The position numbers were made by a program, and so were the translations under genes. DNA of 64,000 nucleotides from Dyadobacter arcticus (GTDB lineage Bacteria; Bacteroidota; Bacteroidia; Cytophagales; Spirosomataceae): NCBI RefSeq assembly GCF_011762185.1, contig NZ_JAASQJ010000001.1, forward strand, positions 620,001 to 684,000. The letters run 5' to 3'. A model generated the notes under the pieces. It worked only from the letters and a program-made list of their open reading frames with translations, was not told the origin of the DNA and did not search any database. The stretch's first letter is position 1, and every line of letters begins with the position of its first letter. Shown one piece after another: positions 41,766 through 57,325 of this stretch.

Positions 41766-41775
41766 GAAAAGGTTT

Positions 41776-41847: not shown

Positions 41848-43131
41848 ATGAAACTAGTAATCCGTTCAGTTCGAATCATTGATAAAAAGTCCACCTTCAA
41901 CGGGCAGGTTAGGGATGTATTGATTGAGGAAGGGAAAATTAAGGAGATAGGGCAGGATCTTGATGCTAATAACGCCGAAATTTGGGAAGCGAATGGGTTG
42001 TGTATGTCGGCAGGCTGGATTGATATGCGCGTTGCCTCACGTGATCCAGGCTTTGAACATAAAGAGGACTTGACTTCCGTTCGTGCGGCGGCGTCCCACG
42101 GAGGATTTACTGAAATCGTATTGTTGCCAAATACCCAGCCGGTTGTCCACAGCAAGGATACATTGAACTATATCAGGCAATCAGGTTCGGGAGGACTGGT
42201 GAAATTGCACGTTGCAGCAGCTGTCAGCCGGAATGCCGAAGGAGTGGATTTCACCGAAATGATCGATTTGCATGAGGCTGGGGCGATTGCATTTACTGAC
42301 GGCGAGCAACCCGTCCAGAATCCGGACCTTTTTCTCAAAACCATTTTATATCTCCAGCCGCTGAATGCATTGCTGATGAACCGCCCGGAGGACAGGCAGC
42401 TTACGCTTTACGGACAAATGCACGAAGGCGTGACCAGCACATTGATTGGGCTGAAAGGTATACCCTCGCTGGCAGAAGAAATGATGCTGAACCGCGATCT
42501 TAAATTACTCGAATACGCCCTGGAAAATAATATGTATCCATCGGAAGTTCCGGCCCTTCACATTTCGCTAATCTCAACCGTTGCAGCTGTTCACCTGGTG
42601 AGGGAGGCAAAGAAAAAAGGACTTCCCGTTTCCTGCGATATCGCAGCGCATCAGCTTGCTTTTGAAGATAAGGACCTGATCGATTTTGATACCAATTTGA
42701 AAGTAAGCCCGCCATTTCGCTCGGCGGCTGATTTGCAAGCATTAAAACAAGGATTGGCAGACGGTACGATCGACGCCATTGTTTCGGATCATAATCCACA
42801 TGATGAGGAAAGTAAAAATCTGGAATTTGACCATGCGGATTTTGGGATAACTGGATTAGAAACCGCATTTTCACTGGCCATAACGCATAGCGGGTTGGAT
42901 TTAGAAGATATTATTGAAAAACTGACTTCTGCACCAAGACACATCCTCCGACTTGCAGAAAATAAGATTGAAGTGGGAGCCGCAGCCAACATTACCTGTT
43001 TTGAGCCGGACGCTAAATGGAATTTTAATAAAAGCTATTCAAAATCAAAGAATACACCCTTTCTGGGAAAAGAGCTAATCGGGAAAGTAAGAGGGGTAAT
43101 TAACAATGGAAAACAGGAGTGGTATTCATGA
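41848..43131 (+). CDS. Dihydroorotase-like protein lacking the HxH metal motif (PyrX type)
   Basis: A 427-residue amidohydrolase-fold protein related to class I dihydroorotase. The strand that normally carries D-x-H-x-H reads D59-M-R61-V-A63, so both zinc-ligand histidines are missing. Other parts of the barrel are kept, for example AFTDGEQPVQ and AIVSDHNPHDEESKN. In other bacteria such pseudo-dihydroorotases support aspartate transcarbamoylase rather than catalyse. A true dihydroorotase would then have to be encoded elsewhere. Its stop overlaps the start of the DUF4199 gene (ATGA at 43128-43131), so the operon is coupled. Confidence 0.85.
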   Translation: MKLVIRSVRIIDKKSTFNGQVRDVLIEEGKIKEIGQDLDANNAEIWEANGLCMSAGWIDMRVASRDPGFEHKEDLTSVRAAASHGGFTEIVLLPNTQPVVHSKDTLNYIRQSGSGGLVKLHVAAAVSRNAEGVDFTEMIDLHEAGAIAFTDGEQPVQNPDLFLKTILYLQPLNALLMNRPEDRQLTLYGQMHEGVTSTLIGLKGIPSLAEEMMLNRDLKLLEYALENNMYPSEVPALHISLISTVAAVHLVREAKKKGLPVSCDIAAHQLAFEDKDLIDFDTNLKVSPPFRSAADLQALKQGLADGTIDAIVSDHNPHDEESKNLEFDHADFGITGLETAFSLAITHSGLDLEDIIEKLTSAPRHILRLAENKIEVGAAANITCFEPDAKWNFNKSYSKSKNTPFLGKELIGKVRGVINNGKQEWYS

Positions 43132-43688
43132 AATCAATTATTGCATATTTTAATAAACCGATTTTAAAACTTCCCCTGCTTTTCGGGTTGGTAACAGGCG
43201 TGCTGGTTTTTATATTTTTCCTCGGACTTTATCTGATTGGCATCGTGCCATTAGGCAATAATAAGGTACTTGACATTGGCATACATATCATTATGATTGC
43301 CGGAGCTTGCTGGTATTACCGCAAAAAAGTGGGAAATGGATTTTTACACCTTTGGGAAGCATTGACGATCGGTTATGTCGTAAACACCATTGGTGCGCTG
43401 GTCGGCGGCTGGCTGATCTATTTTTTTATTACCTATGCTGATCCGTCTGTATTTACAGACTACCTCGCTCAAATGAAAGTATTGATGCTGGATGGGAAAA
43501 AGGAATTGGTCAAGAACATTGGGGAAGCTGAATTTCTTAAAATGTACAATGGTGTGGGAAGTATGCAGCGGTCCGAGATCATTATGGATGAGGTTAGCAA
43601 AAAAACATTGATGGCGATCATCCCAATTCTGGTCATTTCATTAATTTTCAGAAAGCAGGATTACGGCGTATTTCAGAATAAACCTTAA
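43128..43688 (+). CDS. DUF4199 membrane protein (first copy)
   Basis: A 186-residue protein with four predicted membrane helices: about 14-35, 45-62, 80-105 and 155-175. I start at the ATG at 43128, which overlaps the upstream stop as ATGA and has GGAG 8 nt before it. Family segments are LGLYLIGIVPLGNN, IMIAGACWYYRKKVGNGFLH and LWEALTIGYVVNTIGALVGG. Function is unknown. It is a paralogue of the next gene. Confidence 0.85.
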   Translation: MKSIIAYFNKPILKLPLLFGLVTGVLVFIFFLGLYLIGIVPLGNNKVLDIGIHIIMIAGACWYYRKKVGNGFLHLWEALTIGYVVNTIGALVGGWLIYFFITYADPSVFTDYLAQMKVLMLDGKKELVKNIGEAEFLKMYNGVGSMQRSEIIMDEVSKKTLMAIIPILVISLIFRKQDYGVFQNKP

Positions 43689-43698
43689 TTTTATTGAC

Positions 43699-44214
43699 AT
43701 GGACGAAAAAATATCTACTGCCCGCGTTGCGCTGAAATATGGCATTTTAGGTGCTGTTGTAATTATGGTCTATACAACGATCATTAACATTTCGGGCTTC
43801 TCCCAAAATAAGATACTGTCGTCCCTGTCGTTCCTGTTCATGATCATTGCCATTGTACTGGCGATGAAAAATTTCAGGGAACAAAGTAAGGGTTTTATGT
43901 CTTACGGCGAAGGTCTGGGATTAGGTACCCTCACTTCGGCCGTTCTGGGGTTATTGAGTTCGGCGTTTACCATGTTTTACGTCCAATTCATTGATGACAC
44001 GCTGCTAGCGCAGGCACTGGACAAGGTACGGGAGGATATGGAGAGTAGAGGTAAAGACGATTCTGAAATTGAGATGGCAATGGAATTGTCCCAAAAACTC
44101 ATGTCGCCAGCAATCGTATTTCCGGCAAGCATATTGGTTTATGTCATTACCGGCTTTGTTATTTCACTCGTTGCAGCAGCAATTATACGGCGTGAAAAGC
44201 CAGTTTTCGAGTAA
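43699..44214 (+). CDS. DUF4199 membrane protein (second copy)
   Basis: A 171-residue membrane protein with the DUF4199 layout: helices at about 13-32, 37-55, 70-95 and 135-160, and YGEGLGLGTLTSAVLGLLSS in the third. It starts 10 nt after the first copy and probably arose from the same ancestor. Function is unknown. The two may act together, given their constant pairing here. Confidence 0.85.
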   Translation: MDEKISTARVALKYGILGAVVIMVYTTIINISGFSQNKILSSLSFLFMIIAIVLAMKNFREQSKGFMSYGEGLGLGTLTSAVLGLLSSAFTMFYVQFIDDTLLAQALDKVREDMESRGKDDSEIEMAMELSQKLMSPAIVFPASILVYVITGFVISLVAAAIIRREKPVFE

Positions 44215-44251
44215 AATGCATTAGGATAGAATTGTTCAAATCACCGGAAGC

Positions 44252-44980
44252 GTGCTAGCAGTTTTTAACAAAGAGATAGGTAGTTTCTTCAATTCACTGA
44301 TCGCTTACATTGTAATGGCGGTCTTTTTGACTGCAATCGGATTAATTGTCTGGGTTTTCCCTGATTCCAACATTCTAGATTACGGTTACGCTGACCTTGG
44401 TTCCTTTTTCAGTCTTGCTCCCTATGTATTAATTTTCCTGATCCCCGCGATCACAATGCGTTCATTGGCCGAAGAAGCCCGCTCCGGAACGCTTGAACTT
44501 TTACTTACAAAACCTTTGCGTAATGCTGAGCTGGTACTCGGTAAATTCCTCGCTAACTGGGTCCTAGTTCTAGTTACAATTCTGCCAACGCTTGTTTATT
44601 ATTACAGCGTCTACAAACTTGGAAATCCTGAAGGTAATGTTGATTCTGCTTCTGTCTTCGGATCTTATATCGGATTGCTGCTTTTCAGCGGCGTGGTGGT
44701 GTCCATGGGAATCTGGTCGTCTTCGCTCAATGAAAACCAGATCGTCGCCTTTATCCTTGGCGTTTTCCTCGCATTTGTCTGGTATATCGGTTTCGGTGCC
44801 GTTGCCACATTATTTGGCGCGGGACCGATCTCCCAGTTTTTTTCCTGGGCGGCTTTGAACGGGCAGTACCAGTCACTGGGAAAAGGCGTGGTTGATTCCC
44901 GCAATGTTATTTACCTTTTCAGCATCATGAGCCTGTTCATTTTTCTCACCTTTTTGAGGATCGAAAACCTCAGAAAATGA
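44252..44980 (+). CDS. gldF: Gliding-motility-type ABC transporter permease GldF
   Basis: A 242-residue ABC-2 type permease with six membrane helices. Family segments are EIGSFFNSLIAYIVMAVFLT, APYVLIFLIPAITMRSLAEE and GTLELLLTKPLRNAELVLGK, close to GldF of gliding Bacteroidota. The start is GTG at 44252. In flavobacteria gldG follows gldF, but here the next gene is an ECF sigma factor. The substrate is unknown. GldF also occurs in non-gliding species. Confidence 0.88.
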   Translation: MLAVFNKEIGSFFNSLIAYIVMAVFLTAIGLIVWVFPDSNILDYGYADLGSFFSLAPYVLIFLIPAITMRSLAEEARSGTLELLLTKPLRNAELVLGKFLANWVLVLVTILPTLVYYYSVYKLGNPEGNVDSASVFGSYIGLLLFSGVVVSMGIWSSSLNENQIVAFILGVFLAFVWYIGFGAVATLFGAGPISQFFSWAALNGQYQSLGKGVVDSRNVIYLFSIMSLFIFLTFLRIENLRK

Positions 44981-45220
44981 ACGGCTTTTTACGAACGTAA
45001 AAGCTTTTTGATCCAATCTTGTGTGTTCAACGTATATCAGAACAAACACACTAAGATGAGAACAATTCAAGCCCGATTAGGTGCACCGCCAATGTGGAAA
45101 GCTATTGCGGTTTCCGGGACACAAGGTACAGGGACAATAATTTGGAATGGCTCTGCCCTCTTTTACGGAAATTTTGCTAGCTTGCCAGTAAGTAATTTAG
45201 AACTAAAAGTTAAGCAACTC

Positions 45221-45766
45221 TTGGCGACTAGCAAGGTAAAATACTCGGAAGAGGAATTGGTGTTAGCTCTTAAAAGAAACGAGCGCACCGCTTTCGAATT
45301 CCTGTACGACCATTACTCAGGGGCATTGTTTAATATCATTTCAAAAACGTTGAGGGACGAGGAGAGAGCCGCAGACGTATTACAGGAGTCCTTTTTAAAA
45401 ATTTGGAAGAACATTGCTTCCTATAATCCCGAGAAAGGACGATTGTTTACCTGGATCATGAATATTGCGCGTAACGGCGCAATAGATGCGGTCAGAGTGG
45501 AAGGAAGGAAACCCGCAATGGATGATATTGACGACAGGGCAGTCCTGAATGAGCGGGATGTGTACGAGGATTCGCAGAATTCAAGTTCGGAAATGAAAGC
45601 GATCATTAACATGCTCAGGCCCGAAAGGAAGATTCTCATTGATATGGCCTATTTTCAGGGCTACACCCATGAGGAAATTTCAGAAGAATTGAGCATTCCA
45701 TTGGGTACGGTTAAATCGAGGATCCGAACAGCATTACAAGAGTTAAAACAATACTTTGCAGCATGA
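45221..45766 (+). CDS. ECF sigma-70 factor (SigK-like, RskA-paired)
   Basis: With the TTG start at 45221 (LATSKVKYSEEEL) it has 181 residues. Region 2 covers about 15-80 (AFEFLYDHYSGALFNIISK, then ADVLQESFLKIWKNI) and region 4 about 120-178 (RKILIDMAYFQGYTHEEISE, then LGTVKSRIRTALQELKQ). The frame stays open upstream to 45008, but that extension has no sigma-factor features. The true start could also lie slightly upstream. It overlaps the anti-sigma gene by 4 nt (ATGA). Confidence 0.9.
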   Translation: MATSKVKYSEEELVLALKRNERTAFEFLYDHYSGALFNIISKTLRDEERAADVLQESFLKIWKNIASYNPEKGRLFTWIMNIARNGAIDAVRVEGRKPAMDDIDDRAVLNERDVYEDSQNSSSEMKAIINMLRPERKILIDMAYFQGYTHEEISEELSIPLGTVKSRIRTALQELKQYFAA

Positions 45767-46677
45767 ATACACAAGCCTACATAGAGTCCGGCATATTAGA
45801 GGAATATGTATTGGGCACTGTTTCTTCTCAGGAAAAACAGGAAGTGGAGTGTATGTCTCATATTTACCCTGAGATTAAGGAAGAGCTGTTACGCACTGAG
45901 AACGCATTGGAGGAATATGCATTAAAGCATCAAACTGCTCCACCTGCGTCTTTAAAAGAATCGCTTTTTGCTAAAATGAATTTTGATTTCGCACAGGAAA
46001 TAGAAGACACACACACCCATGATTTGACCAGTGACTATATTGAAAGCGTAAGCACGACAACAATAGAATCACATGATACGATGCGACCAGTAAATGCAGA
46101 GCCTAAAATTATAGACAATGTATTTGATCAGGTTGAAACCAGGGTGGTAACACCAGCTTGGGCCAAATTTGCAGCAGCTGCGGCAGTTTTACTAGCCATT
46201 TTTGCGGCCTGGTCTGCAAGTCAGATGACCGAGTATAAAGGTAGCAACGAGCAGTTGGCTTCGGAAATGAGTGGCATGAAAATGGAAATGGCAAGCCTAA
46301 AACAAGGTTTTGAGTACAATCAGTCGCTCGCCAATCTATATCGGGATCCGAGTTATAAAGCCGTTCAGTTGGCAGGTCTTCCAAAATCTCCCGAAAGTTC
46401 TGTTGCCGCATTCTGGAACCAGAAAACCAATGAGGTTTTGATTGATGTGAAGAATTTGCCCGCGGCGCCTGCCGGCAAACAATATCAGCTGTGGAGCATT
46501 GTGAATGGTGAAGCCGCACCAATGGATATGGGGATGATCGACAACCAGTTTAGTGGTAAGGTTTTGAAAATGAAAAACACCAAACCAGGCTCAGTAGCGT
46601 TTGCTATCACGCTTGAGAAAGAAGGTGGCGTACCGTCACCGACGATGGAAGAAATGTATGTGATGGGAAAAGTATAG
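45763..46677 (+). CDS. Anti-sigma factor, RskA family
   Basis: A 304-residue inner-membrane anti-sigma factor. The N-terminal zinc-less anti-sigma domain (about 1-75) has YIESGILEEYVLGTVSSQEK. A single membrane helix sits at about 127-147 (WAKFAAAAAVLLAIFAAWSA), then a coiled coil and the C-terminal RskA domain with YQLWSIVNGEAAPMDMG and TPTMEEMY-like SPTMEEMYVMGKV. It should hold the sigma factor encoded just upstream. The overlapping start argues for translational coupling. The inducing signal is unknown. Confidence 0.92.
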   Translation: MNTQAYIESGILEEYVLGTVSSQEKQEVECMSHIYPEIKEELLRTENALEEYALKHQTAPPASLKESLFAKMNFDFAQEIEDTHTHDLTSDYIESVSTTTIESHDTMRPVNAEPKIIDNVFDQVETRVVTPAWAKFAAAAAVLLAIFAAWSASQMTEYKGSNEQLASEMSGMKMEMASLKQGFEYNQSLANLYRDPSYKAVQLAGLPKSPESSVAAFWNQKTNEVLIDVKNLPAAPAGKQYQLWSIVNGEAAPMDMGMIDNQFSGKVLKMKNTKPGSVAFAITLEKEGGVPSPTMEEMYVMGKV

Positions 46678-46683
46678 TTGACC

Positions 46684-46779
46684 TTTGTCATGCTGAGCGG
46701 AGTCGAAGCACGTTACTGGCTCGGTACAATGCCCTTTTGAATACTGCTTCTTGCACTTCGACTGCGCTCAGTGGGACAA
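46684..46779. repeat. CTGAGCGGAGTCGAAG-type inverted repeat, copy A
   Basis: Left arm 46684-46711 and right arm 46754-46779 are near-complementary around CTGAGCGGAGTCGAAG and CTTCGACTGCGCTCAG, with about 42 nt between. 46687-46717 matches the reverse complement of 59416-59446 with one mismatch in 31. It sits between the anti-sigma gene and the FAD oxidoreductase. Confidence 0.8.
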
Positions 46780-46839
46780 TGTAGCAGTTAGTTTGACAAA
46801 GAGCATTTCGCATGACAGTTCCAAGATATCGCTAGATAA

Positions 46840-48555
46840 ATGAAACGTAGAAGTTTTATAGCAAACATCGCCCTCAGTGGCGCTATTGCAAATACAATCA
46901 ACGAAGGTCCGGCTATTGAGTCCGGGCCTTTTTTGCGTGAAAATAAAGCGGAGGAAACGCTTATTGCTGACGTCGCGATCGCTGGAGGAGGACTGGGCGG
47001 CTGCGCTGCGGCATTGGCGGCATTGCGAAATAACCTGTCCGTAATCCTGACGGAAGAAACCGATTGGATCGGCGGCCAGCTTTCCCAGCAAGGCGTGCCG
47101 CCGGACGAGCATCAATGGATTGAAACGCATGGTTGTACGAAGCAGTACCGGGATTTTCGTAAAGCGATCAGGCAATATTACATTAAAAACTATCCGCTGA
47201 CAGAAGAAGCAAAGGGCCGCAAGTTCCTGAATCCCGGTGACGGTGCCGTTTCGCGTCTCTGCATTGAACCGCGTGTAGCGGTAACCGTTTTGATGGATAT
47301 GTTTGCGCCTTACATCAGTTCCGGCAAATTGACTTTGCTTTTGGAGCATAAAGTCGTCTCAGCAAAAGCGAGCGGCAACAAAGTGCAATCATTGGAAGCA
47401 AGAAATAACCGGACTGGCAAGCATCTCATACTTTCAGCACCGTATTTTGTAGATGCTACCGAATTGGGCGATTTGCTTCCGCTAACCGGCACCGAATTCG
47501 TGACCGGGACCGAATCCAAAAGCGAGACCAACGAACTGCACGCCCCGGAAAAGGGAAATCCCGACAACGTACAGGCATTTACCGTTTGCTTTGCGATGGA
47601 TTACCAGCCCGGCAAAAACCACGTGATCCCCAAGCCTGCAGACTATGATTTCTGGAAGGATTACATTCCGAAAATGAGCAAACCCTGGTCTGGAAAGTTA
47701 CTGTCACCTTCCTATTCCAACCCCAAAACCCTCGAACCCAAAGAACTCGGTTTTCATCCCGAAGGCATTGCTACGGGCGACAAGCTGAACCTCTGGAACT
47801 ACCGCAGGATCATCAGCAAAGCCAATTTCGTGCCCGGTACCTACAAAGGCGACATCACGATTGTAAACTGGCCGCAAAACGACTATTTCCTGGGCAACCT
47901 GATCGGAGCCAGCGAAAAGGATTTCGCCAAACATGTCGAAAAAGCCAAACAACTCAGCTTATCCCTGCTCTACTGGCTGCAAACCGAAGCCCCCCGCCCC
48001 GATGGCGGAAAAGGCTGGCCGGGAATCCGTTTCCGGAAAGACATCATGGGCACCGAAGACGGCCTTGCCAAATACCCCTACGTCCGCGAATCGCGCCGCA
48101 TCAAAGCCGTTTTTACCATCAAAGAAGAACACGTAGGAGCCGCAAACCGCGAAATGGCCGTAGCCGCTGGCACCCCAGGCCCCAAAGACAAAGCTGCCGA
48201 ATTCCACGACAGCGTAGGCGTAGGCTACTACCACATCGACCTCCACCCAAGCAGCGCCGGCGACAATTACATCGATTTCGCATCCCTCCCCTTCCAAATC
48301 CCCCTAGGTGCGCTTATTCCTATACGCATGGAAAATTTGTTGCCAGCGAATAAGAATATTGGGACTACGCATATTACGAATGGTTGTTATCGGCTTCATC
48401 CGGTAGAATGGAGCATTGGGGAGGCTGTGGGGTTGTTGGTGAAGTTTGCTTTTGGGAAGGGGGTTACGCCGCGGGGTGTGCGGGAGAGGAGTGAAATGTT
48501 AAAGGGGTTTCAGGAGTTTTTGAAGGGGGAAGGGGTTGAGTTGGCGTGGCGGTGA
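46840..48555 (+). CDS. Exported FAD-dependent oxidoreductase (FAD_oxidored family)
   Basis: A 571-residue flavoprotein with a Tat-like signal (KRRSFIANIALSG) and the FAD-binding start DVAIAGGGLGGCAAALAAL. Then follow EETDWIGGQLSQQGVPPDEH, FVDATELGDLLPLTG and C-terminal THITNGCYRLHPVEWSIGEA. It probably oxidizes a sugar or other small molecule in the periplasm, but the substrate is not apparent. Base use changes abruptly inside the gene. My hand count for 48181-48300 is 46 C and 21 G, and for 48421-48540 it is 8 C and 58 G. The reading frame is kept throughout. Confidence 0.88.
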   Translation: MKRRSFIANIALSGAIANTINEGPAIESGPFLRENKAEETLIADVAIAGGGLGGCAAALAALRNNLSVILTEETDWIGGQLSQQGVPPDEHQWIETHGCTKQYRDFRKAIRQYYIKNYPLTEEAKGRKFLNPGDGAVSRLCIEPRVAVTVLMDMFAPYISSGKLTLLLEHKVVSAKASGNKVQSLEARNNRTGKHLILSAPYFVDATELGDLLPLTGTEFVTGTESKSETNELHAPEKGNPDNVQAFTVCFAMDYQPGKNHVIPKPADYDFWKDYIPKMSKPWSGKLLSPSYSNPKTLEPKELGFHPEGIATGDKLNLWNYRRIISKANFVPGTYKGDITIVNWPQNDYFLGNLIGASEKDFAKHVEKAKQLSLSLLYWLQTEAPRPDGGKGWPGIRFRKDIMGTEDGLAKYPYVRESRRIKAVFTIKEEHVGAANREMAVAAGTPGPKDKAAEFHDSVGVGYYHIDLHPSSAGDNYIDFASLPFQIPLGALIPIRMENLLPANKNIGTTHITNGCYRLHPVEWSIGEAVGLLVKFAFGKGVTPRGVRERSEMLKGFQEFLKGEGVELAWR

Positions 48556-48638
48556 GAGCTAAGGAGGTTTCAATATTTAGATGTAGTGACGTGAAGCTTG
48601 CGAATTAGATTGACAATTAGGCTGGTCTTCCATTGCAC

Positions 48639-49610
48639 CTAAGAGATATCCCATAAATGCTGTGAGATCCGTTTATGCATTATATGTGTTCCCAGTTTAA
48701 CCCAACGATGGCCTGAAAAGAATTCTAGGTAATAGAGGATATCATTTACAAGGGTTGCATAATTATGCATCTTCTCGCCAATTCTTGCTGCGTTTTTTGT
48801 CGAATTGTCAAATACGCCCGAATGGATCGCCTTATTTCGTTCAGAAATGAGATTTTTTGCACTGGCAATTGTTTCTTTTGAAAAGTCCAATCTTGGTTCA
48901 AGCTGCTGAACAAGCTCGCTTATAAGTTTAATCACAGGTGGAGATTGAATGTTTTCTAAAATCCATTCAGTATCTGGACTTCTACTTTTAATAAACTGTT
49001 TGACTCCGATCTCTAACGCAGTGGCTACCATTATGAGAGCCGCTCGTGGAGTAGATGACATTGTAACCTTTGCCTCGTTTAAAATTTCAAAAGGCAGTGG
49101 TTCGGAAATATTTCTGTTCGCTAATTGCGCTAATAAGGATAAATTGAAAATTCTTGAATCTTGCAGTGTAGCACCAGAAATCCACATATCAAACAAGTGG
49201 TACCAGTTGAATTTATCAAAAGACCAATTTTTGGAAGTTCTTCCGGAGGCTAGATTAACGTTAAGAACCCACCGCATCAGATTAAAATACGTCTGTGGTT
49301 TGTCCCATTCACTTATGTGATTATCAATAAAACCTTTTATTATATCATTTGGAGGTATGCGAAGAGGAAAGCCTTTTTTATGAGATTCAGAAATTGCCAC
49401 AAACGCATCGTATGTCTTCACATTTATTTCGTACTCAAATATTGAATTGATTTCAAATTTGAATTTTTCATCAGCCACAAGGTAATGAAAGGATGTCGTA
49501 ATCTTCGGGAGATTGTGCTCCTTTTCTTCACCTACACTAAAAAATTCTCTTACTGCCTGATTATGATCATCATAAACCAGAGTAGATTTTACGTAGATTT
49601 TTAATCCCAT
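48639..49610 (-). CDS. Uncharacterized protein with C-terminal HEPN-like RX4H motif
   Basis: A 323-residue protein I cannot match to a named family. The N-terminal part (about 1-150) is mixed alpha/beta without known motif. The C-terminal part (about 185-300) is helical and has TPRAALIMVATALEIGVKQF followed by ISERNKAIHSGVFDNS, where R258-N-K-A-I-H263 fits the RX4H motif of HEPN ribonucleases. HEPN domains act as RNA-cleaving effectors in many toxin and anti-phage systems. It is the last gene of a three-gene minus-strand unit, 19 nt after the three-Cys protein. It is visibly A+T-rich. An RNase role is inference from the motif and context. Confidence 0.8.
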   Translation of the reverse strand: MGLKIYVKSTLVYDDHNQAVREFFSVGEEKEHNLPKITTSFHYLVADEKFKFEINSIFEYEINVKTYDAFVAISESHKKGFPLRIPPNDIIKGFIDNHISEWDKPQTYFNLMRWVLNVNLASGRTSKNWSFDKFNWYHLFDMWISGATLQDSRIFNLSLLAQLANRNISEPLPFEILNEAKVTMSSTPRAALIMVATALEIGVKQFIKSRSPDTEWILENIQSPPVIKLISELVQQLEPRLDFSKETIASAKNLISERNKAIHSGVFDNSTKNAARIGEKMHNYATLVNDILYYLEFFSGHRWVKLGTHIMHKRISQHLWDIS

Positions 49611-49629
49611 GTATCTTCAACTTTGTACA

Positions 49630-50373
49630 TTATGGATAAGCCTTAGAGAAAGCCGGTTCCTCATTCCACTCTTTTCCTAACAATAATCTACCGTTAGCCT
49701 TCTTATTCCGCTTCAGGCCATCCTCGCCCCAGGTACCCCACTGTTTGAAAAAGAATGAAACTTCTTGGTCATCACATTGTCTTTGAATTTCAGCAGCCCA
49801 CTGCGACTTCATCGGCCTGGCGCGACTACCGCTTTCACCGCCGACAATAACCCAGTGAATGTCAGTAAGATTGAGTTCTCCCATATTTTCCAACAGAGGC
49901 TCAATAGACAGAAATCGAATTTTCGCATCAATGCTTCTTAATGCATCAATACGATTTTTCTTTTTCGCAATTTCAACTGTTACCCCAAGCCAAACATTGT
50001 CAGGAACTGATCTGTTAGCAAAATAGCTGACAAGAATATCCTCTCGCTTGGTAAGTATTTGATATGTATGTTGTGGAGTATCTCGAATAGTAGCGAAAAC
50101 CTCATCCAGATAACTGAAAGGCATCTTTTCGTGAAAAAGATCGCTCATTGAGTTGACAAAAAACTTTGTTGGACGCTTAATTTTTTTCGGCGCATCAAGG
50201 CGGTTGGGTAAGATCTTGAAATCAAATCCGTCTTCATATCCTGGTGCTCCCATCAACATCAACCTTCTGGCCATCGTTTCAGCATAGCAAAATTTACAGC
50301 CAGCTGAAACTTTATCACAGCCCACCGAAGGGTTCCACGTTGCTTCTGTCCACTCTATCTTGCTGTATTTCAT
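49630..50373 (-). CDS. Three-Cys-motif protein (DUF5131, phage Gp37/Gp68-like)
   Basis: A 247-residue protein of the DUF5131/Gp37-Gp68 family. The start is KIEWTEATWNPSVGCDKVSA, followed by GCKFCYAETMARR, giving C19-x6-C26-x2-C29, a radical-SAM-like three-cysteine cluster. Further family segments are FFVNSMSDLFHEKMPF, ILTKREDILV, WLGVTVEI, SIEPLLENMGEL and WVIVGGESGSRARPM, then the C-terminal FFKQWGTWGE. The family recurs next to TcmP, as here, with a one-base stop/start overlap (TAATG). The reaction is unknown to me. Modification of a nucleic acid or base is a reasonable guess. Confidence 0.92.
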   Translation of the reverse strand: MKYSKIEWTEATWNPSVGCDKVSAGCKFCYAETMARRLMLMGAPGYEDGFDFKILPNRLDAPKKIKRPTKFFVNSMSDLFHEKMPFSYLDEVFATIRDTPQHTYQILTKREDILVSYFANRSVPDNVWLGVTVEIAKKKNRIDALRSIDAKIRFLSIEPLLENMGELNLTDIHWVIVGGESGSRARPMKSQWAAEIQRQCDDQEVSFFFKQWGTWGEDGLKRNKKANGRLLLGKEWNEEPAFSKAYP

Positions 50374-51488
50374 TACTTTGGTAGGTTAAAATCTACAAGT
50401 TGCCTTTCTCTGTAGACTTTGTCATATGTAATATATGGTGAAGTAGCTGTGAAATTTATCTCGCCTTTTTGCTTCATCTCTTTCAAAGTCTCAGCCGCGT
50501 GTCTGCCAATGTGGCCTTCCTCGTATGCAAAGTTTAGTGCGTCGAAATTACTCCTAATCTCGCCAGATAGAATTCTTTTTTTCAGGTTTTCTTTGAACTG
50601 TTCAATCTTCGTCAATTTTTTCGTTCCGAATAAATCTAGTTGTGCTTTGCGAAAGTCTTGATCCATATCGAAGTTGGCCTGACCGTTGATTTCATTTCTT
50701 TTCCATGCAATTCCCAGAAATTTTTCAACTGCAAGTGGATGGCTAGCACCGAAGACAATGCCGAAAATATTGGTTCCTTTTTTTATTGAAAATGGATACA
50801 ATTTCAGCTTTGTCTTCCCTGGAAGTTTTTGCTTTAATTGTGTAATTAGATTCCTGTGGACCAAGCTAAATGATCCCTTTTTCAGGGAGTCGACGTCGAG
50901 TGTGACATGCTTTTTGAATTCATCTGTATTACCAAGCCACAGGAAGTATGAGGATGAGACAAAATAAAGAAAATCAGTTTGGACCATTTTTTCGAATTCA
51001 AGCAAATACTTATCCGAAAGGAATTTAATGCCATTTTGGTCAATGTAAACTAATGAAGGATGCTGCTTTATTTCAGAAAGTAGTTTTGGGAAGAGTGTTT
51101 CAAAATCTTTATTAGTAAAGATCAGATCAATTGAGCCCTTAACATCTTGATTAATAGCGAGATATTCGTTGCAAGCGTCTTGCAGTAATTGATATTTATT
51201 TTGCTTTGTTCGATTGGGCTCGTATTCATTGAGGTACAACCGAATGCGAACACTTTTTTCAATAATATAGCCAATATGATCCTTAATTTTTCTCAAAAGC
51301 CTAATTGGGCTACCAGGTATCCCATTTAAATCGTAACCCGTACCCGCAAAGAAGTCGAAAATGCAGATTATTGGAGCCTCCTGCATAACAAATGTCGGAA
51401 TCCAGGCTTGGACATAATCCTCGAAAATTTCGAGTTTTGTAATTGTGCTTTCGTCGAATGGATCTTCGTGTAGATCTTTTGATGGCAT
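50373..51488 (-). CDS. tcmP: Three-Cys-motif partner protein TcmP
   Basis: With the ATG at 51488 (MPSKDLHEDPFDES) it has 371 residues. It has the TcmP hallmarks: TKLEIFEDYVQAWIPTF, the Rossmann-like nucleotide-binding start FDFFAGTGYDLNGIPGSPIR, RIRLYLNEYEPNRTKQ, SLVYIDQNGIKFLS, and a C-terminal winged-helix-like tail (DALNFAYEEGHIGRHAAETL). The FAGxG segment resembles SAM-dependent methyltransferases. The frame upstream to 51530 is possible but weaker. It is the first gene of the three-gene unit with the three-Cys protein and the HEPN-like protein. Biological function is not established in anything I can recall. Confidence 0.9.
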   Translation of the reverse strand: MPSKDLHEDPFDESTITKLEIFEDYVQAWIPTFVMQEAPIICIFDFFAGTGYDLNGIPGSPIRLLRKIKDHIGYIIEKSVRIRLYLNEYEPNRTKQNKYQLLQDACNEYLAINQDVKGSIDLIFTNKDFETLFPKLLSEIKQHPSLVYIDQNGIKFLSDKYLLEFEKMVQTDFLYFVSSSYFLWLGNTDEFKKHVTLDVDSLKKGSFSLVHRNLITQLKQKLPGKTKLKLYPFSIKKGTNIFGIVFGASHPLAVEKFLGIAWKRNEINGQANFDMDQDFRKAQLDLFGTKKLTKIEQFKENLKKRILSGEIRSNFDALNFAYEEGHIGRHAAETLKEMKQKGEINFTATSPYITYDKVYRERQLVDFNLPK

Positions 51489-51659
51489 ATGTAAGAGGAT
51501 ATAAGGTTTGACTATCAAATCTCTTATCAAAGCCTTTTTACTGTCAACGTAATCCCGGTATAGCGAAGTAGTTATTGATCGGCATGGTTGATTTAATTAT
51601 CGGCAAAAAACTGATAAATGAAGCATCTCCTCGACGGTCACGCTATGATCATTACTAAG

Positions 51660-52094
51660 CTATTTACTCCCAATCAACTTTTCCATCCTCCCCATCATCT
51701 CATCCTTCTCCTTCAACATCCGCTCATAAAGCTCCATTTTTTCATTATGCAACTTCCTTATTTCTTCAATTGGGTTGACATTAAAAGTTGGTGCATTTCC
51801 AGTATTGACAAATGCACTATCCTTAAAGTCGTGAAATGTATTTGAAATAATATTCACAGCTTTTTCCTCATCAAAATTCCGAATTGCCTCAACTGGGATT
51901 TTAAGAATCGCCGAAACTTGTTCCAATATGTCGGAATCGATCTTTTCTCTTTGTTCGAGTAGAGAAACCTTTTGCTGGTTCCATTCGTCGCCGAGCTCGA
52001 AGGCGAGCGCGTCTTGCTTAATTCCGAGTAATTCGCGGAAGCGTTTCAGGTTGCGGCCCTCGTGGATCTTAGGGTTGGAGGTAGTGGGTGTCAT
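51660..52094 (-). CDS. XRE-family helix-turn-helix regulator with C-terminal coiled coil
   Basis: From the ATG at 52094 the protein has 144 residues. The N-terminal helix-turn-helix (about 12-70) has NLKRFRELLGIKQDALAFEL and QQKVSLLEQREKIDSDILEQ. The C-terminus is a charged coiled coil (KMELYERMLKEKDEMMGRME). Such small regulators are common in Bacteroidota accessory regions. It ends 171 nt upstream of tcmP on the same strand and could control that unit. The frame is open to 52430, but the extension is basic and lacks domain features, so I rejected it. Confidence 0.88.
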   Translation of the reverse strand: MTPTTSNPKIHEGRNLKRFRELLGIKQDALAFELGDEWNQQKVSLLEQREKIDSDILEQVSAILKIPVEAIRNFDEEKAVNIISNTFHDFKDSAFVNTGNAPTFNVNPIEEIRKLHNEKMELYERMLKEKDEMMGRMEKLIGSK

Positions 52095-52165
52095 GCGGAA
52101 AGCTATTTTTTGAAAAGGCAATTTATATAAATCCTTCGGTAAGTTTTCGGGTAATTTACAAGCAT

Positions 52166-52188
52166 TTCGGCGTAATGTACCAGCCGAA
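52166..52188. promoter_or_regulatory. Inverted repeat upstream of the XRE regulator gene
   Basis: TTCGGC and GCCGAA separated by 11 nt, 72 nt upstream of the regulator start. Similar GCCGAA text recurs at about 52233. It could be an autoregulatory operator, but short perfect arms also arise by chance. Confidence 0.3.
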
Positions 52189-52285
52189 TGTGTTGGGTAC
52201 GATTTGCAGGAAGCCGTGCTTTGCCGAAACCAAATACGAGGCCTTAAAGCAAGGTTTTCATCAACATTTTTAAAATCAGCCACAC

Positions 52286-52540
52286 ATGCAAACAGAACCA
52301 AACCCCCAGGAGTCCGCAGACCCGAAATTGATCGCTTATGGTAAGGAAGTAAGCTCGCTGTTGAGCAGTAGTAATCCCAAAAGCTGGACTGCCGAACTCT
52401 GGACAATGTTCGGCGGCTACGTCCTCGCATTGAAAGAGTTAGGCTACACGCCGGGCCTGAGTAACACGTTTTGGTCGTGGAAGGAGCTGGTTGATTTTTT
52501 TGAGAAGGTTGAGGAGATTAGGAAGGGGGAGGGAGGGTGA
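52286..52540 (+). CDS. Small hypothetical protein
   Basis: An 84-residue acidic protein beginning MQTEPNPQESADPKL with WTAELWTMFGGYVLALKELG in the middle and a lysine/glutamate-rich end (VDFFEKVEEIRKGEGG). I do not recognise the family. The balanced composition and clear start support a real gene. The last codons are extremely G-rich and overlap a G-quadruplex-type run. It is divergent from the XRE regulator gene. Confidence 0.55.
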   Translation: MQTEPNPQESADPKLIAYGKEVSSLLSSSNPKSWTAELWTMFGGYVLALKELGYTPGLSNTFWSWKELVDFFEKVEEIRKGEGG

Positions 52541-52549
52541 GGGGCGGGG
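52525..52549 (+). other. Putative G-quadruplex run over the stop codon of the small ORF
   Basis: Five G-runs in 25 nt, GGGGG-A-GGG-A-GGG-TGA-GGGG-C-GGGG, with loops of 1 to 3 nt. This satisfies the usual G3+N1-7 pattern on the coding strand, and the TGA stop forms one loop. It is the densest such run I saw in the window. Confidence 0.65.
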
Positions 52550-52570
52550 CGGTTACTTCGGGCGTTCACT

Positions 52571-52590
52571 CCGTTGGCTGAAGCCAACGG
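52571..52590. repeat. 20-nt palindrome, copy 1 (CCGTTGGCTGAAGCCAACGG)
   Basis: Perfect 9-bp arms around a GA centre. Flanking TCACT and AGTGA can extend the stem to about 52566-52597 with a small bulge. It belongs to a five-member set in this window whose arms differ but stay self-complementary. Confidence 0.75.
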
Positions 52591-52735
52591 TTAGTGACTT
52601 TTTGGGCTGTTTGTAAATGCTACAAACCGTTCGCTCGATGAAGTCCTGCCGATAGAAAAATTTCAATTTTTAATTCAAAAAATACAATTAGATAGCAGCA
52701 GGTATTTTTAATCTCATTTAAAACTATTTGCCGCT

Positions 52736-55087
52736 ATGATGAAGAAATTACTGTTATTACTAACTCTTACCATCCAAATTTCAGCCGCTCAGGATGCATA
52801 TTATTTAACAAAAGGCGTGCGGTATCCTATTTGGTACAGCAAAACAAAGATCCTTGTAAAGTTCGTGGACATTTCCGGTAGTAGCGATCTCAGGCCGGAG
52901 GATGTATCAGCGAAGGCCAAGCGCATTGAGCCAATTCACAGCATTCCTGATATGGCGTATGTGCTTTTTGATTCCCTGACATCGCAAACGGAGATTGATT
53001 CGGCGATTTCCGCTCTTCGGAAGAATGAAAACGTTAAGTCTACTCACCCAGTGCTGGTCAACGAGTCGGGCGAGGAAGTTGCCGGGCTGACCGACGTTAT
53101 TATTGCCCGACCGAAAAGAAATGCTTTGATTCAAAATATTCTGAACGTATTCAGAACATACAATTTAGACATTGATGCGGATGACACTGATTCTGAAAAG
53201 AACTACTATTTGAGAGGTAAACTCGTCACTAGTAATCCATTTGAGGCCTGTGAGAAACTGGAAGCTACCGGACTCTTTGAATTCATTCAGCCAAATTATC
53301 TCCGATTTTTGGAACTAGCTGGAAATCCGAATGACCCACTTTTTGCCAGTAACTGGGGCCTTGCCAAAATGAAATTGCCGGAAGCCTGGGACATCACGGC
53401 AGGTTGCCCTAATATCAAAATAGCGATTATCGATGACGGCGTACAACTTAATCATCCTGACTTGCAACCCAACTTGCTTCCAGGATTTGATGCAACTCCA
53501 TACGGTACAAACGGAGGAACTGTCGCAGGCGAGGAGCAGCATGGAACCAATTGTGCTGGTTTTGCAGCTGCAAAAGGAAACAATGGAATAGGAATCGCGG
53601 GAGTAGCATATAACAGCAAAATCATTCCAATCAGGGCATTTGGGACAAAACCGGATGGCAGCTTGCGAACCGAAACGCTGGATTCGTACATAGCTTCCGC
53701 CATCAATCATGCTATTAATGTAAAGAATGCAGACATCTTAAGCATGTCGTGGGGAATCATTCCAAGTGTGGTACCTGTCAATCAAAGTCCGGTTATTGAA
53801 GCTGCCCTCAACAATGCGACTATGAATGGAAGAGGAGGCAAAGGGGCGGTTTTGGTGACCAGCTCCGGTAATAAAGGCCTCAACTATCTCGCTCCATTGC
53901 CAGGGAATGTCAAGGACATATTTGTGGTGGGAGCATCGAAATCAAACGATATGCGCTGGGAAGGTTCCAATGGTCCGACGCACCGCATAGATGTGGCGGC
54001 GCCCGGCGCTTATGTAACTACCAAGGATGGTAGCCAATACAACAATCAGCCAGCTGAAAGTGCCACTTCGTGGGCGGCACCCTCGGTAGCAGGAATCGCA
54101 GCGTTGATCCTTTCGGTTAACCCCAGCCTGACTCAAATGCAGGTTCGAAGGATCATCGCTGAGACGTGTGATAAAGTTGGCGGTTATAACTACTTGGTTG
54201 GTAATGGTTCAACATTTTCTGACCTGTCGCATAACAATGATCTTGGTTATGGAAGGGTCAATGCATTGCGTGCAGTAGAAAAAGCAGCGGGCGCACCTAT
54301 CGCAGGTCCGGACCTGATTTGCAGTAACGGAGGTTACACACTTACGCAATTTCCGGCGGGTTCATCCGCAATGTGGTCCGCATCTGCGGGGTTGACAACG
54401 GCAGGAAACCTGGCTACCCGGCAAGGCGGATACAAGGGTGTGGCAACTATTTTTGCAACGCTAACTATTCCGAATGCCTGTGCTCCAGTAACTATCAAGC
54501 GTTCGATTTGGGTAGGTAACCCGAATATCACCAAGACCGTCAATGGTGTAATTACCAGTACCATTTCGGTAAATGCAGGTGGATTGTATAGTCTGGCCGC
54601 TAGTTCGTCGAGTCCGTCGACAAACTTTAATTACAATAACTATGCGGGATCGGGCGATATGGCAATTGACATTTATAATCCAAATAGCGCAAGCACACAA
54701 ATGTACGTATTGGCAAATTCTACAAATGGACTTCGTAAAGTCAAATTGACGGCAGCCAACAGTTGTGGAAATTACGCTGAGGACTTTGTATTTTATCTTT
54801 CCTCGGGGCTAAAAGTTTATCCAAATCCGGCAAAAGATTTGGTAACCCTTGAATTTGGAAGAGCGGAAATTGAAGAAACGCTTCCCGTTCAAATTCAACT
54901 GTTTAAAGAGAATTCGACAAATCCTGAAAGAGTAATTTTGGTGAAAGACGCGCTTGTGAAGCAGAAATCAGAGAGCAAGATAAACATAGGGGTAGGCGAT
55001 TTGCCCCGAGGAACATATTATGTGCATTTGCTTTTTGGTGGTGATAAAAATGAGCGTATTGAGAAAGTGAGAATCGTCTTAAATTAA
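52736..55087 (+). CDS. Subtilisin-like serine peptidase (S8) with T9SS-type C-terminal sorting domain
   Basis: A 783-residue secreted protease. A signal peptide covers about 1-18, a propeptide-like region about 20-190, and the S8 catalytic domain about 200-520. The catalytic residues are Asp233 (IAIIDDGVQLNHPDL), His269 (EEQHGTNCAGFAA) and Ser445 (SATSWAAPSVAGIAAL). The C-terminal about 80 residues start LKVYPNPAKDLVTLEF and end RIEKVRIVLN, the T9SS type A sorting domain. It should therefore leave the cell through the SprA translocon encoded in this window. It probably degrades external protein. Confidence 0.94.
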   Translation: MMKKLLLLLTLTIQISAAQDAYYLTKGVRYPIWYSKTKILVKFVDISGSSDLRPEDVSAKAKRIEPIHSIPDMAYVLFDSLTSQTEIDSAISALRKNENVKSTHPVLVNESGEEVAGLTDVIIARPKRNALIQNILNVFRTYNLDIDADDTDSEKNYYLRGKLVTSNPFEACEKLEATGLFEFIQPNYLRFLELAGNPNDPLFASNWGLAKMKLPEAWDITAGCPNIKIAIIDDGVQLNHPDLQPNLLPGFDATPYGTNGGTVAGEEQHGTNCAGFAAAKGNNGIGIAGVAYNSKIIPIRAFGTKPDGSLRTETLDSYIASAINHAINVKNADILSMSWGIIPSVVPVNQSPVIEAALNNATMNGRGGKGAVLVTSSGNKGLNYLAPLPGNVKDIFVVGASKSNDMRWEGSNGPTHRIDVAAPGAYVTTKDGSQYNNQPAESATSWAAPSVAGIAALILSVNPSLTQMQVRRIIAETCDKVGGYNYLVGNGSTFSDLSHNNDLGYGRVNALRAVEKAAGAPIAGPDLICSNGGYTLTQFPAGSSAMWSASAGLTTAGNLATRQGGYKGVATIFATLTIPNACAPVTIKRSIWVGNPNITKTVNGVITSTISVNAGGLYSLAASSSSPSTNFNYNNYAGSGDMAIDIYNPNSASTQMYVLANSTNGLRKVKLTAANSCGNYAEDFVFYLSSGLKVYPNPAKDLVTLEFGRAEIEETLPVQIQLFKENSTNPERVILVKDALVKQKSESKINIGVGDLPRGTYYVHLLFGGDKNERIEKVRIVLN

Positions 55088-55101
55088 ATTAGGTAAGAGA
55101 T

Positions 55102-55776
55102 ATGAAAACATTAGCTATACTATCAGCAATTATCACAATCAGCCTTTCACAGGCTCAGGCCCAGCAAAATAATTCCTGGGAGTTTGGCATTCAAGCCGAA
55201 TATGGTAACGATTGGTATCACAGAGCGTATTATGAATGGGAGTCGCTTCCCAATGGCTACATTCAGGATTTTCCATCTTACCATTCGCGCGGCGTCGGTA
55301 TTTTCGCCGAGCGAATACTTAACTCGCAATTTTCGCTGCTTGGACAGCTAAATTATACTCAAAAGAAAATGCCTGTTGATATGTTTGGCGAGCGAAGCGC
55401 GACTGGCGCCCGTTGGGTTACGAAGGAAGTTCATCACCGTGGATCTGCGGACATTGGATTGCGTTGGTATGTAAATCCCAAATCTCAGCTCAGGTTTTTT
55501 GTCGACGGAAAGCTGGCTGCAAACATATTAATTGCGGCGGTTCAGCGAGTGGAAGGTTTCGGGAATGTTGCCACATGGAATGCATTTGGATATGATCGTA
55601 TAGCTCCGACGGTATCAGGTTCGGCGGGAATCAAATGGAAGCGTTTGGCAATATCGGTCGAATATCGACATGATCTCGCACCAGTAAAAAGAAATATTAG
55701 CAGGACAGGTATTACAAGTCAGGCTTTGGAGGGCAAGGTTGCCTTTACTCTGTTTAGGTCGGGCACAGCAGATTGA
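55102..55776 (+). CDS. Small outer-membrane beta-barrel-like protein
   Basis: A 224-residue protein with a signal peptide (about 1-20, ending AQA). The rest alternates polar and hydrophobic residues as in small barrels (NSWEFGIQAEYGNDWYHRAY, ADIGLRWYVNPKSQLRFFVD, IKWKRLAISVEYRHDL). I do not recognise a named family. It starts 14 nt after the subtilase gene and is probably co-transcribed. A stem-loop terminator follows at 55859-55895. Confidence 0.8.
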   Translation: MKTLAILSAIITISLSQAQAQQNNSWEFGIQAEYGNDWYHRAYYEWESLPNGYIQDFPSYHSRGVGIFAERILNSQFSLLGQLNYTQKKMPVDMFGERSATGARWVTKEVHHRGSADIGLRWYVNPKSQLRFFVDGKLAANILIAAVQRVEGFGNVATWNAFGYDRIAPTVSGSAGIKWKRLAISVEYRHDLAPVKRNISRTGITSQALEGKVAFTLFRSGTAD

Positions 55777-55858
55777 TGTAAAGCAACGTTGGTATTCACT
55801 TTTCATGAAATTCAGTCATAAGTATCTATTTTTCACAGATAATATTCATATTTCACAA

Positions 55859-55895
55859 AAAAAGCGAGCAGTCCATAATGCGCTGCTCGCTTTTT
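55859..55895. terminator. Bidirectional terminator between the barrel gene and the sugar region
   Basis: Stem AAAAAGCGAGCAG/CTGCTCGCTTTTT (13 bp) with an 11-nt loop, A-run on one side and T-run on the other. It suits the convergent genes on either side. Confidence 0.8.
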
Positions 55896-55905
55896 AAATC
55901 AATTT

Positions 55906-55925
55906 CCGTCGGTTTCAACCGACGG
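55906..55925. repeat. 20-nt palindrome, copy 2 (CCGTCGGTTTCAACCGACGG)
   Basis: Perfect 9-bp arms around TC (GA on the other strand). It is the second member of the five-copy palindrome set. It lies 11 nt past the terminator and 18 nt before the oxidoreductase stop. Confidence 0.75.
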
Positions 55926-55942
55926 GCAACGGGGCCGGGCGG

Positions 55943-57325
55943 CTATTTCCCCTTCGCCTGCTTCAGCGCCATCGTCGTAATCCAATATTTCGTAATCATG
56001 TTCGGCACTTCCCACTCGGGCAGTTTGCCCGCCTTCAAATATTCCATATACTTATTAGCAACCTGCGCAAAGTGCGACTCATGCCCGGTATCGTATTTTG
56101 CTGGAATGGTGATTTCCCAGCCTGCTGCAATCTTTTTCAGCTCGACGCCTGGGTACTTATCCTGTACAGATTTGAATGCACCGGCAACGCCATCTTCGTA
56201 GGCTTTCGACTTGTCCGTGTTTTCGATAAAAAGAACAGGCTTGTACTTTTGCTCTTTGCCCTGGCGGACGATCAGGTTGGCTTTGGAGCCTTTCATGATC
56301 GAATAATGCGTATCACCGGTCCCTTCCGGTGCTTGGAAATTCCAGAGCACAGATACTTTCGCGTGCACGCCTTTCAGCGAATAATTAATCTCGCCGTTTG
56401 AATAAACACTCAATGTGGAATCCTTCACATCCTTGCTCAGGAAGTCGGGATACTTATCGCTTTTTGTTACCAGCTTGAATTGCGATGGCGTAAGCTTGGT
56501 AGCAGTGCGTTTGGTTGATAGTAACTTCACATCCTTTTGATAATCCACAACCGTATTTGGAAAACAGCTCCACTGCACCAGGTCCACAAGGTGCGTGGTC
56601 ACGTCCACTATTCCCTCACCCGACTGATTTACATCAAAAAACCATGTAGGCCGTACCAAGGCTTCACCCGAAATATATTTAAAGTAATGGTGAACGCTTT
56701 CCTTGGCAACAGCAGGGTTTTCCGGTGTCCCCTTTTGTAGTTCTCCAAAAATAGCGGGAAGAGAGGCCAGTTCACGCTGCAATGCATTGGTGATCTCATA
56801 ACGCTCAGTCATGATATCATACAAAAGCACCTTATTTTTGTCGGCACTTGCGAATGCTTCCTTCAATTTCTCAAAACCCGCCACATTGATCGCCATCGGC
56901 TTGTCGGCAAGCACATTCAAACCAGCATCGACAGATTTTTTAATGTAATCGGTTTTCTTCTGATTGTTTCCTGCCAGGACTACTACGTTACCCTTCTTTT
57001 CGGCCAGCATTTTATCGAGAAAATCAGGTCCTGTATAAACTTCCTCTTTCCAATGCGTAGGGTTTTCAGGTGCGCCGTTGTATTTCTGAACTTTATCGAG
57101 GTAGGCTTTTACATCCGGCCCCTCGGACGCATAAACGTGAACAACCGAATCCACATCGTCGTACATGGATTTCTGTACCAATGCCGCATGGAAATGGCCT
57201 GGCTCCACTACGATCAGGCTCAAAGGCTTTTTCGTCCCTTCTTTTGCTTCTGCTTTCTTGGTACTACATCCCTGATTTATTGCCATTGCGCTCAATAAAG
57301 CGATTGTCAAGAGTTCTTTTCTCAT
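55943..57325 (-). CDS. Gfo/Idh/MocA-family oxidoreductase, lipoprotein-like
   Basis: From the ATG at 57325 the protein has 460 residues with a signal ending in NQGC, probably a lipoprotein. The Rossmann half has LIVVEPGHFHAALVQKSMYD and the conserved LNVLADKPMAINVAGFEKL (Lys-Pro of the EKP motif). The C-terminal half includes HLVDLVQWSC and SALHIQNF-type segments replaced by longer inserts. The family uses NAD(P) on sugars, sometimes with tightly bound cofactor. The substrate is unknown. It lies next to nagB/nagA on the same strand. Confidence 0.85.
   Translation of the reverse strand: MRKELLTIALLSAMAINQGCSTKKAEAKEGTKKPLSLIVVEPGHFHAALVQKSMYDDVDSVVHVYASEGPDVKAYLDKVQKYNGAPENPTHWKEEVYTGPDFLDKMLAEKKGNVVVLAGNNQKKTDYIKKSVDAGLNVLADKPMAINVAGFEKLKEAFASADKNKVLLYDIMTERYEITNALQRELASLPAIFGELQKGTPENPAVAKESVHHYFKYISGEALVRPTWFFDVNQSGEGIVDVTTHLVDLVQWSCFPNTVVDYQKDVKLLSTKRTATKLTPSQFKLVTKSDKYPDFLSKDVKDSTLSVYSNGEINYSLKGVHAKVSVLWNFQAPEGTGDTHYSIMKGSKANLIVRQGKEQKYKPVLFIENTDKSKAYEDGVAGAFKSVQDKYPGVELKKIAAGWEITIPAKYDTGHESHFAQVANKYMEYLKAGKLPEWEVPNMITKYWITTMALKQAKGK

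Follow-up and report, generated by a model that had tools for sequence, protein, structure and literature searches.

Introduction

Hotspots of defence genes are known from Escherichia coli (PMC10121019), and comparable islands from Pseudomonas (PMC12629846). Analysed here is a window of 64,000 nucleotides (nt) from Dyadobacter arcticus (contig NZ_JAASQJ010000001.1, positions 620,001 to 684,000), in which three minus-strand genes, encoding a TcmP protein, a DUF5131 protein with three clustered cysteines and a HEPN-like protein, lie 3' of a gene for an XRE-family regulator. As far as the available parts of the two reports describe those systems, the locus resembles them in its fixed chromosomal site with diverse defence cargo and in that some islands also lack clear mobility genes, and it differs from them in that members of a single paralogous XRE family mark many sites within each genome and in that the variable cargo begins at the XRE 3' end (PMC10121019, PMC12629846).

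We favour, with some reserve, the reading that the three genes are one exchangeable cargo cassette docked 3' of a resident XRE gene, between a flavin adenine dinucleotide (FAD)-oxidoreductase gene and a Gfo/Idh-type gene. No XRE-marked defence sites in Dyadobacter were found in the open literature searched; within that literature the XRE-marked, sharply bounded docking arrangement is new, and the TcmP/DUF5131 pair itself is a known candidate.

A resident XRE gene with changing cargo

Among the 48 genomes of the genus sample, the FAD-oxidoreductase gene is found in 41 and the Gfo/Idh-type gene in all 48. Twenty-seven congeners carry both flanks on one contig within about 10 kilobases (kb) and were compared at this site. 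The XRE gene is kept in 24 of the 27, one copy being broken (locus L187), and among these 24 the stretch from XRE to the FAD gene varies, so that conserved flanks enclose variable defence cargo, as in a defence hotspot. The features of the anchor, in window coordinates, are as follows.

51660..52094, minus strand: XRE-family gene, read as the multicopy anchor of exchangeable cargo (10 matches in its own genome; same site in 24 of 27 congeners)
51660..51683, minus strand: cargo junction, the conserved XRE 3' end (14-nt core plus 10 nt including the stop codon), where similarity to other copies ends
52151..52180, minus strand: predicted XRE operator pair, two GTAANTTAC-like sites 21 nt apart, one exact and the other GTACATTAC

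When cargo sets sharing at least one gene of at least 130 amino acids (aa) are grouped, the 25 XRE sites, including that of the window, fall into 19 cargo groups, with 15 sets occurring once and 10 distributed over four sharing groups; shorter MNT/HepT-like genes recur at further sites. Twenty cargo proteins were picked by hand, each from a different one of the 24 congener sites, and 12 of them match PADLOC models at 1e-8: a DNA cytosine methylase, an AriA/AbiLi-like ATPase, PDC-S06, SIR2, HEC-01A, a cyclase of the cyclic oligonucleotide-based antiphage signalling system (CBASS), PDC-M68B, a HEC-04/Septu-like ATPase, PDC-S71, AbiU, a helicase and, more weakly, a PD-DExK protein.

The three sites that lack XRE (L196, L208 and L209, left out of the set of XRE copies) carry no such cargo next to the FAD gene: two have an open reading frame (ORF) that by eye resembles a ROK-type regulator and one has only short ORFs. 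One of the three retains a HigBA-like pair, which in several congeners is found on the Gfo side. In a tree of 83 XRE copies, from which the broken copy L187 was omitted, the label 'this site' requires 5 changes compared with 21 in shuffles, which indicates that mostly the XRE gene stays while the cargo changes. Across most congeners, then, XRE stays at the site and the unrelated cargo behind it, low in guanine plus cytosine (G+C), is replaced, much of it matching defence models.

Also recurrent as XRE cargo (L201, L206, L207 and others; a cluster of five) is a 194-aa P-loop protein that by eye resembles a zeta-toxin-like kinase; the L207 copy was tested and has no PADLOC match.

The XRE family and its 3' boundary

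The XRE family is multicopy and nearly restricted to the genus: at least one copy occurs in 43 of the 48 genomes, with about 201 copies summed over the sample, and outside the genus one of 31 genomes matched, weakly. Ten matches lie in the own genome, one of them interrupted by an internal stop. The results below rest on 84 of the roughly 201 copies, taken from chosen genomes: 25 at this site and 59 elsewhere (60 other regions were fetched, of which L234 gave no XRE).

The boundary is sharp. In 23 of the 24 copies at this site, similarity to the window copy ends between -13 and +41 nt from the XRE stop, the lone exception being Dyadobacter soli, which shares the cargo of the window; in all 59 copies elsewhere it ends between -22 and +13 nt, so that DNA similarity stops at the XRE 3' junction in 82 of the 83 copies compared. 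Information content, about 1.5-2 bits at most positions, drops to about 0.1 bit past the stop in the 78 copies profiled (six of the 84, in which the 3' core has no close counterpart, are not included). On the upstream side, 53 of 84 copies carry one or more exact GTAANTTAC in the 140 nt next to XRE, a feature of 1.4% of 140-nt windows drawn at random from these loci. Split by location, an exact match is present in 24 of 25 copies at this site and in 29 of the 59 others; a pair of exact matches spaced 21 nt apart occurs in 12 copies.

Two copies show additional XRE sequence. At L187, where XRE is broken, a second XRE 3'-end fragment lies just behind it, ahead of an AbiU-like gene, and at L230 a partial second copy, promoter included, is located about 3.5 kb upstream of the intact XRE.

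DNA behind and in front of XRE

Here "behind" denotes the 3' side of XRE and "in front" the 5' side. The G+C content of the adjoining 2 kb averages 37.4% behind and 46.4% in front at this site, where it is lower behind in 20 of 20 copies, and 40.7% versus 46.2% at the other copies, where it is lower behind in 52 of 58 (six of the 84 copies, with less than 1500 nt on a side, were omitted). Genes resembling toxin-antitoxin components were sought within 2.5 kb with eight query proteins labelled by resemblance, a Pfam scan having been made for the MNT representative only; six queries were chosen for recurring behind XRE and two came from the front side. Such genes lie behind 21 of the 59 other copies and in front of none of the 59, a count that favours the side behind because most queries were picked for recurring there. 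It replaces an earlier, narrower count over the two nearest ORFs with families taken from the 3' side (29 versus 4 of 84).

Models of defence families follow the same direction: 279 PADLOC families were matched behind XRE (108 non-redundant proteins) versus 65 in front (106), figures that count families rather than proteins, so that their ratio is only indicative. Twenty-five families each were listed from these 279 and 65 and from the 98 and 107 Pfam families. Among the 25 Pfam families listed behind XRE are AAA ATPases, AIPR, reverse transcriptase, EcoO109I and YhcG, and among the 25 listed in front are AraC regulators, TonB plug and SusD. At the other XRE copies, too, the DNA behind is thus of low G+C, and defence and toxin-antitoxin-like genes are more abundant there than on the front side.

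A CBASS-like cyclase gene (L216) and a gene for a SAVED-effector-type HNH protein (L241) sit in front of XRE copies, and these two, assigned by cluster, probably account for the CBASS models on the front side. At this site a HigA-like gene, from a sequence cluster of 13 members, recurs on the Gfo side of XRE (L185, L186, L188, L196 and others), sometimes with a HigB-like gene.

The three-gene cassette and its TcmP/DUF5131 pair

The cassette comprises the following genes and motifs, in which SAM stands for S-adenosylmethionine and wHTH for winged helix-turn-helix.

50373..51488, minus strand: TcmP gene, 371 aa from ATG, a TTG start 14 codons further upstream being possible
49630..50373, minus strand: DUF5131 three-Cys gene, 247 aa, radical-SAM-like, PDC-M30B
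48639..49610, minus strand: HEPN-like gene, 323 aa, predicted ribonuclease (RNase)
51336..51356, minus strand: TcmP motif I, D45-x-F-x-G-x-G51 (SAM loop); D45, G49 and G51 in 100% of 85 rows, F47 in 99%
50439..50657, minus strand: GMT-like wHTH domain at the TcmP C-terminus (PF22560, residues 292-364 in TTG-start numbering)
50287..50319, minus strand: C-x6-C-x2-C of the DUF5131 protein, residues 19, 26 and 29, invariant in 115 of 115 rows

An earlier reading, made from the letters of the window alone (hereafter the sequence-only reading), had described three tight minus-strand genes with a TAATG overlap and a 19-nt gap, and the ORF list, itself the output of a longest-ORF script rather than of a gene caller, agrees: the TcmP and DUF5131 genes overlap by 1 nt at the TAATG stop/start, and 19 nt separate the DUF5131 gene from the HEPN-like gene. 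The cassette genes are probably co-transcribed. The C-x6-C-x2-C and RX4H motifs named in that reading were both located in the proteins, the XRE regulator that it placed upstream is the gene at 51660-52094 on the minus strand, and its view of the setting as defence-like is supported. Its low G+C holds as a contrast and is milder in size, with about 35-41% in 500-nt steps of the cassette and 38-56%, mostly at least 42%, in the remaining steps of 40000-60000, compared with 32-35% versus 40-60% by hand count. The cassette is real, mobile and defence-like.

TcmP matches TIGR04474 of NCBIfam at 8e-29 (101.4 bits, above the curated cut-off of 53) and PADLOC PDC-M30A at 4e-140, and the DUF5131 protein matches PDC-M30B at 8e-116 and Pfam PF07505 at 6e-100, both PADLOC matches being nearly full length; these family matches are far beyond chance. 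PADLOC calls PDC-M30 only where both the A and the B protein are present, and here the TcmP-type A and DUF5131-type B proteins are adjacent and in the usual order, adjacency holding in 73 of 80 loci. What the sequence-only reading had described as a recurrent pair is a catalogued defence candidate. The arrangement departs from the catalogued one in having a HEPN gene after the pair and an XRE gene before it.

A class I (Rossmann) methyltransferase fold is modelled with confidence for TcmP, the closest structures being the RNA methylases RlmJ and Trm1, so that the SAM-type domain of the sequence-only reading now appears, on its predicted fold and motif I, as a class I SAM methyltransferase. Only the methylase fold is claimed, because GRAS-domain and histamine-methylase rows are nearly tied with RlmJ in the VIA-align structure list. 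From the RlmJ and Trm1 RNA methyltransferases TcmP differs in being 7-13% identical and in its added wHTH domain, and it carries DQNG at what we take to be the position of methylase motif IV. The three-cysteine part of the radical-SAM-like protein foreseen from the letters is borne out by the invariance listed above. Canonical radical SAM proteins space these cysteines x3/x2, compared with x6/x2 here, and the match to NCBIfam rSAM_mob_pairA (3e-31, 108.5 bits) lies below the equivalog cut-off of 355. Acting together in defence, the two enzymes would modify or sense nucleic acid.

TcmP relatives occur in 59 of 395 genomes of a phylum sample and in 5 of 48 of the genus sample, the own genome included; none were found in a phage collection at the limits used or in viral contigs by word patterns. 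The comparison with close relatives that the sequence-only reading had proposed reveals presence and absence of the pair at a fixed site. D. soli carries the pair in this same position and lacks the HEPN gene, and the other three TcmP-bearing genomes of the genus sample hold a more distant TcmP elsewhere in the genome. Compared with window positions 49630-51488, the D. soli locus (L195) is 92% identical in the DUF5131 protein and only 70% in TcmP, which suggests a mosaic cassette.

The third gene, a candidate HEPN RNase

The HEPN-like protein has no Pfam or PADLOC family match, and its NCBIfam and PHROGs matches are weak. Two motifs characterise it.

48822..48839, minus strand: HEPN RX4H motif, R258-N-K-A-I-H263, with R, N and H invariant in 7 of 7 sequences
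48999..49013, minus strand: second HEPN motif, E200-x3-K204, invariant in 7 of 7 sequences

HEPN proteins are defined, in the part of the source available, by Rx4-6H with a polar residue after R, together with Ex3[KR] (PMC3710099), and both Ex3K and R-N-x3-H are invariant in our alignment of seven. Three relatives match PF18735 (RiboL-PSP-HEPN) at 2.5e-6, 8e-4 and 1.3e-3, all under the curated cut-off; the best reaches 28.0 bits against a gathering cut-off of 28.4, and the own protein is unmatched, so that it is not assigned to that family. Motifs and relatives together make the third gene a candidate for a divergent HEPN RNase, and to this extent the RNase proposed in the sequence-only reading gains support from the aligned residues. 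It resembles the stand-alone phage-defence proteins of the PF18735 and ApeA kind in its Ex3K and RNx3H motifs, in the PF18735 matches of its relatives and in that one relative carries the source label 'ApeA N-terminal domain-containing', and it differs from them in that the own protein matches no Pfam family and its N-terminal region showed no match to an ApeA domain model.

The closest relative, P0002, is 47% identical and was the only close one in a word-limited search of 5.8 billion proteins; a profile search added a Dyadobacter sandarakinus protein and one metagenome protein, and tblastn extended the set to distant relatives in 199 plasmid records, 187 being from Enterococcus. None were found in the phage collection at the limits used or in GTDB contigs by word patterns. 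Of the 48 genus-sample genomes two carry the family, as do two of the 395 in the phylum sample, where only the own genome has both the HEPN-like gene and TcmP. Relatives stand without TcmP alongside in the gene tables of four plasmids viewed (of the 199 records), in G377 and in D. sandarakinus, where the gene adjoins one that by eye resembles an integrase, and the HEPN profile has no match, at E up to 10, among the ORFs of other TcmP loci (L004-L033, L035-L079, L081-L090, L093-L172).

These contexts bear on the central proposal of the sequence-only reading, a modification-plus-effector defence or toxin-antitoxin system of all three genes, which by its own account would fall if the HEPN gene were unlinked to tcmP elsewhere or if all three genes were core in all relatives. 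The three genes are not core in all relatives; within the genomes seen the HEPN gene stands beside TcmP only here. The HEPN gene is an unlinked addition to the pair, not a fixed partner, and its product may be an RNase effector that was acquired independently and is carried in the same operon.

Proposed exchange at the XRE 3' end and competing explanations

Recombination at the 3' end of XRE may bring in new cargo, and the XRE protein may regulate its own gene from the conserved predicted operator and so set the expression of the cargo. Five XRE copies have a second occurrence of 38-70 nt of the XRE 3' end, 618-799 nt downstream and past a HigA-like gene, which is what insertion at that end would leave. 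Repeats of this kind were also considered as a general feature and rejected: over all copies the last 24 nt find a best downstream match of 14.7 of 24 positions, compared with 14.3 when shuffled, and only a few copies stand out from this.

Several observations weigh against an exchangeable cassette docked behind a resident XRE gene. The far-end repeats are limited to 5 of 84 copies and do not exceed the shuffled control overall, and no recombinase or defined attachment site was identified at the XRE loci, so that integration at the XRE 3' end is offered as a hypothesis. The five label changes in the tree mean that XRE genes are sometimes replaced too. At this site toxin-antitoxin-like genes within 2.5 kb are as frequent in front (10 of 25) as behind (9 of 25), and within 4 kb the front count rises to 13 of 25, mostly HigA-like; the choice of queries described above favours the side behind. 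CBASS-type cyclase and HNH-SAVED models dominate the 25 listed of the 65 front-side PADLOC families, housekeeping Pfam families also occur behind XRE, 8 of the 20 picked cargo proteins have no PADLOC match at 1e-8, and PADLOC PDC entries are themselves candidates. The copies at this site are related rather than independent, which makes p-values too favourable, the 84 copies are a chosen part of the family, and the structure model of the HEPN-like protein (predicted local distance difference test score 36.7) was too poor for a fold search.

CapW and BrxR exemplify a general kind of defence regulator, and XRE may be a co-transcribed regulator of this kind that spread by ordinary homologous recombination, its stop codon merely ending a shared promoter-regulator unit. 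This is possible and somewhat doubtful. The operator-like repeats conserved upstream accord with it, as does gene orientation: the gene next behind XRE reads in the same direction in 62 of 84 copies, and in 35 of 84 it also lies within 100 nt, compared with 5 of 83 in front; yet that gene runs opposite in 22 of 84, which argues against a simple shared operon and is also an observation against the docked cassette, the XRE position is stable while the cargo changes, and XRE 3'-end repeats flank some cargo. More tentative still, and rather unlikely as a whole, is the bolder view that XRE is a dedicated docking gene for immune cassettes, with the pair and the HEPN protein forming an RNA-level restriction-modification system by cassette stacking. 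A recombination process would then insert or replace cassettes exactly at the XRE 3' end, each incoming piece bringing the last codons and stop of XRE; a Dyadobacter genome would offer about ten sockets, each with the same self-regulated promoter in front; and TcmP/DUF5131 could mark RNA, which the HEPN RNase would then spare.

That the pair serves RNA or DNA modification or repair, has no defence role and is merely parked at a variable site seems unlikely. No experimental defence test of the pair was found in the literature searched, and the modelled TcmP fold resembles those of housekeeping rRNA and tRNA methylases; against this stand its patchy distribution in the genus and phylum samples, its PADLOC listing as a defence candidate, the CBASS cyclase, SIR2, AbiU and other genes that congeners have in its place, and the naming together, by locus tag, of the Sinorhizobium meliloti TcmP gene SMa2243 and the Hna defence gene SMa2245 in the available part of one report (PMC12445080). 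Most improbable is a single dedicated three-gene system: the tandem order, the 1-nt overlap and 19-nt gap, the HEPN motifs and the defence-like setting speak for it, but the D. soli pair lacks the HEPN gene, the HEPN profile is unmatched at other TcmP loci and the HEPN relatives with visible context stand without TcmP. As the HEPN gene is not linked to TcmP/DUF5131 in other genomes seen, the dedicated system is rejected.

Other features of the site

An 84-aa ORF (window 52286-52540, plus strand) is divergent from XRE and recurs at 51-66% identity in 14 of 27 congener loci at the site; it has no Pfam, NCBIfam or PADLOC match.

Implications

How defence cassettes are swapped without visible mobility genes is an open question in defence hotspots, and it becomes testable with a gene family whose members flag many swap sites in each genome and whose boundary is sharp to within a few tens of bases. 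The arrangement is also a handle for discovery, in that a gene of unknown function directly behind XRE in Dyadobacter is a defence candidate, and the position of TcmP/DUF5131 directly behind XRE strengthens their assignment to defence. The findings suggest that Dyadobacter uses the XRE gene as a socket for swapping cassettes that are probably anti-viral.

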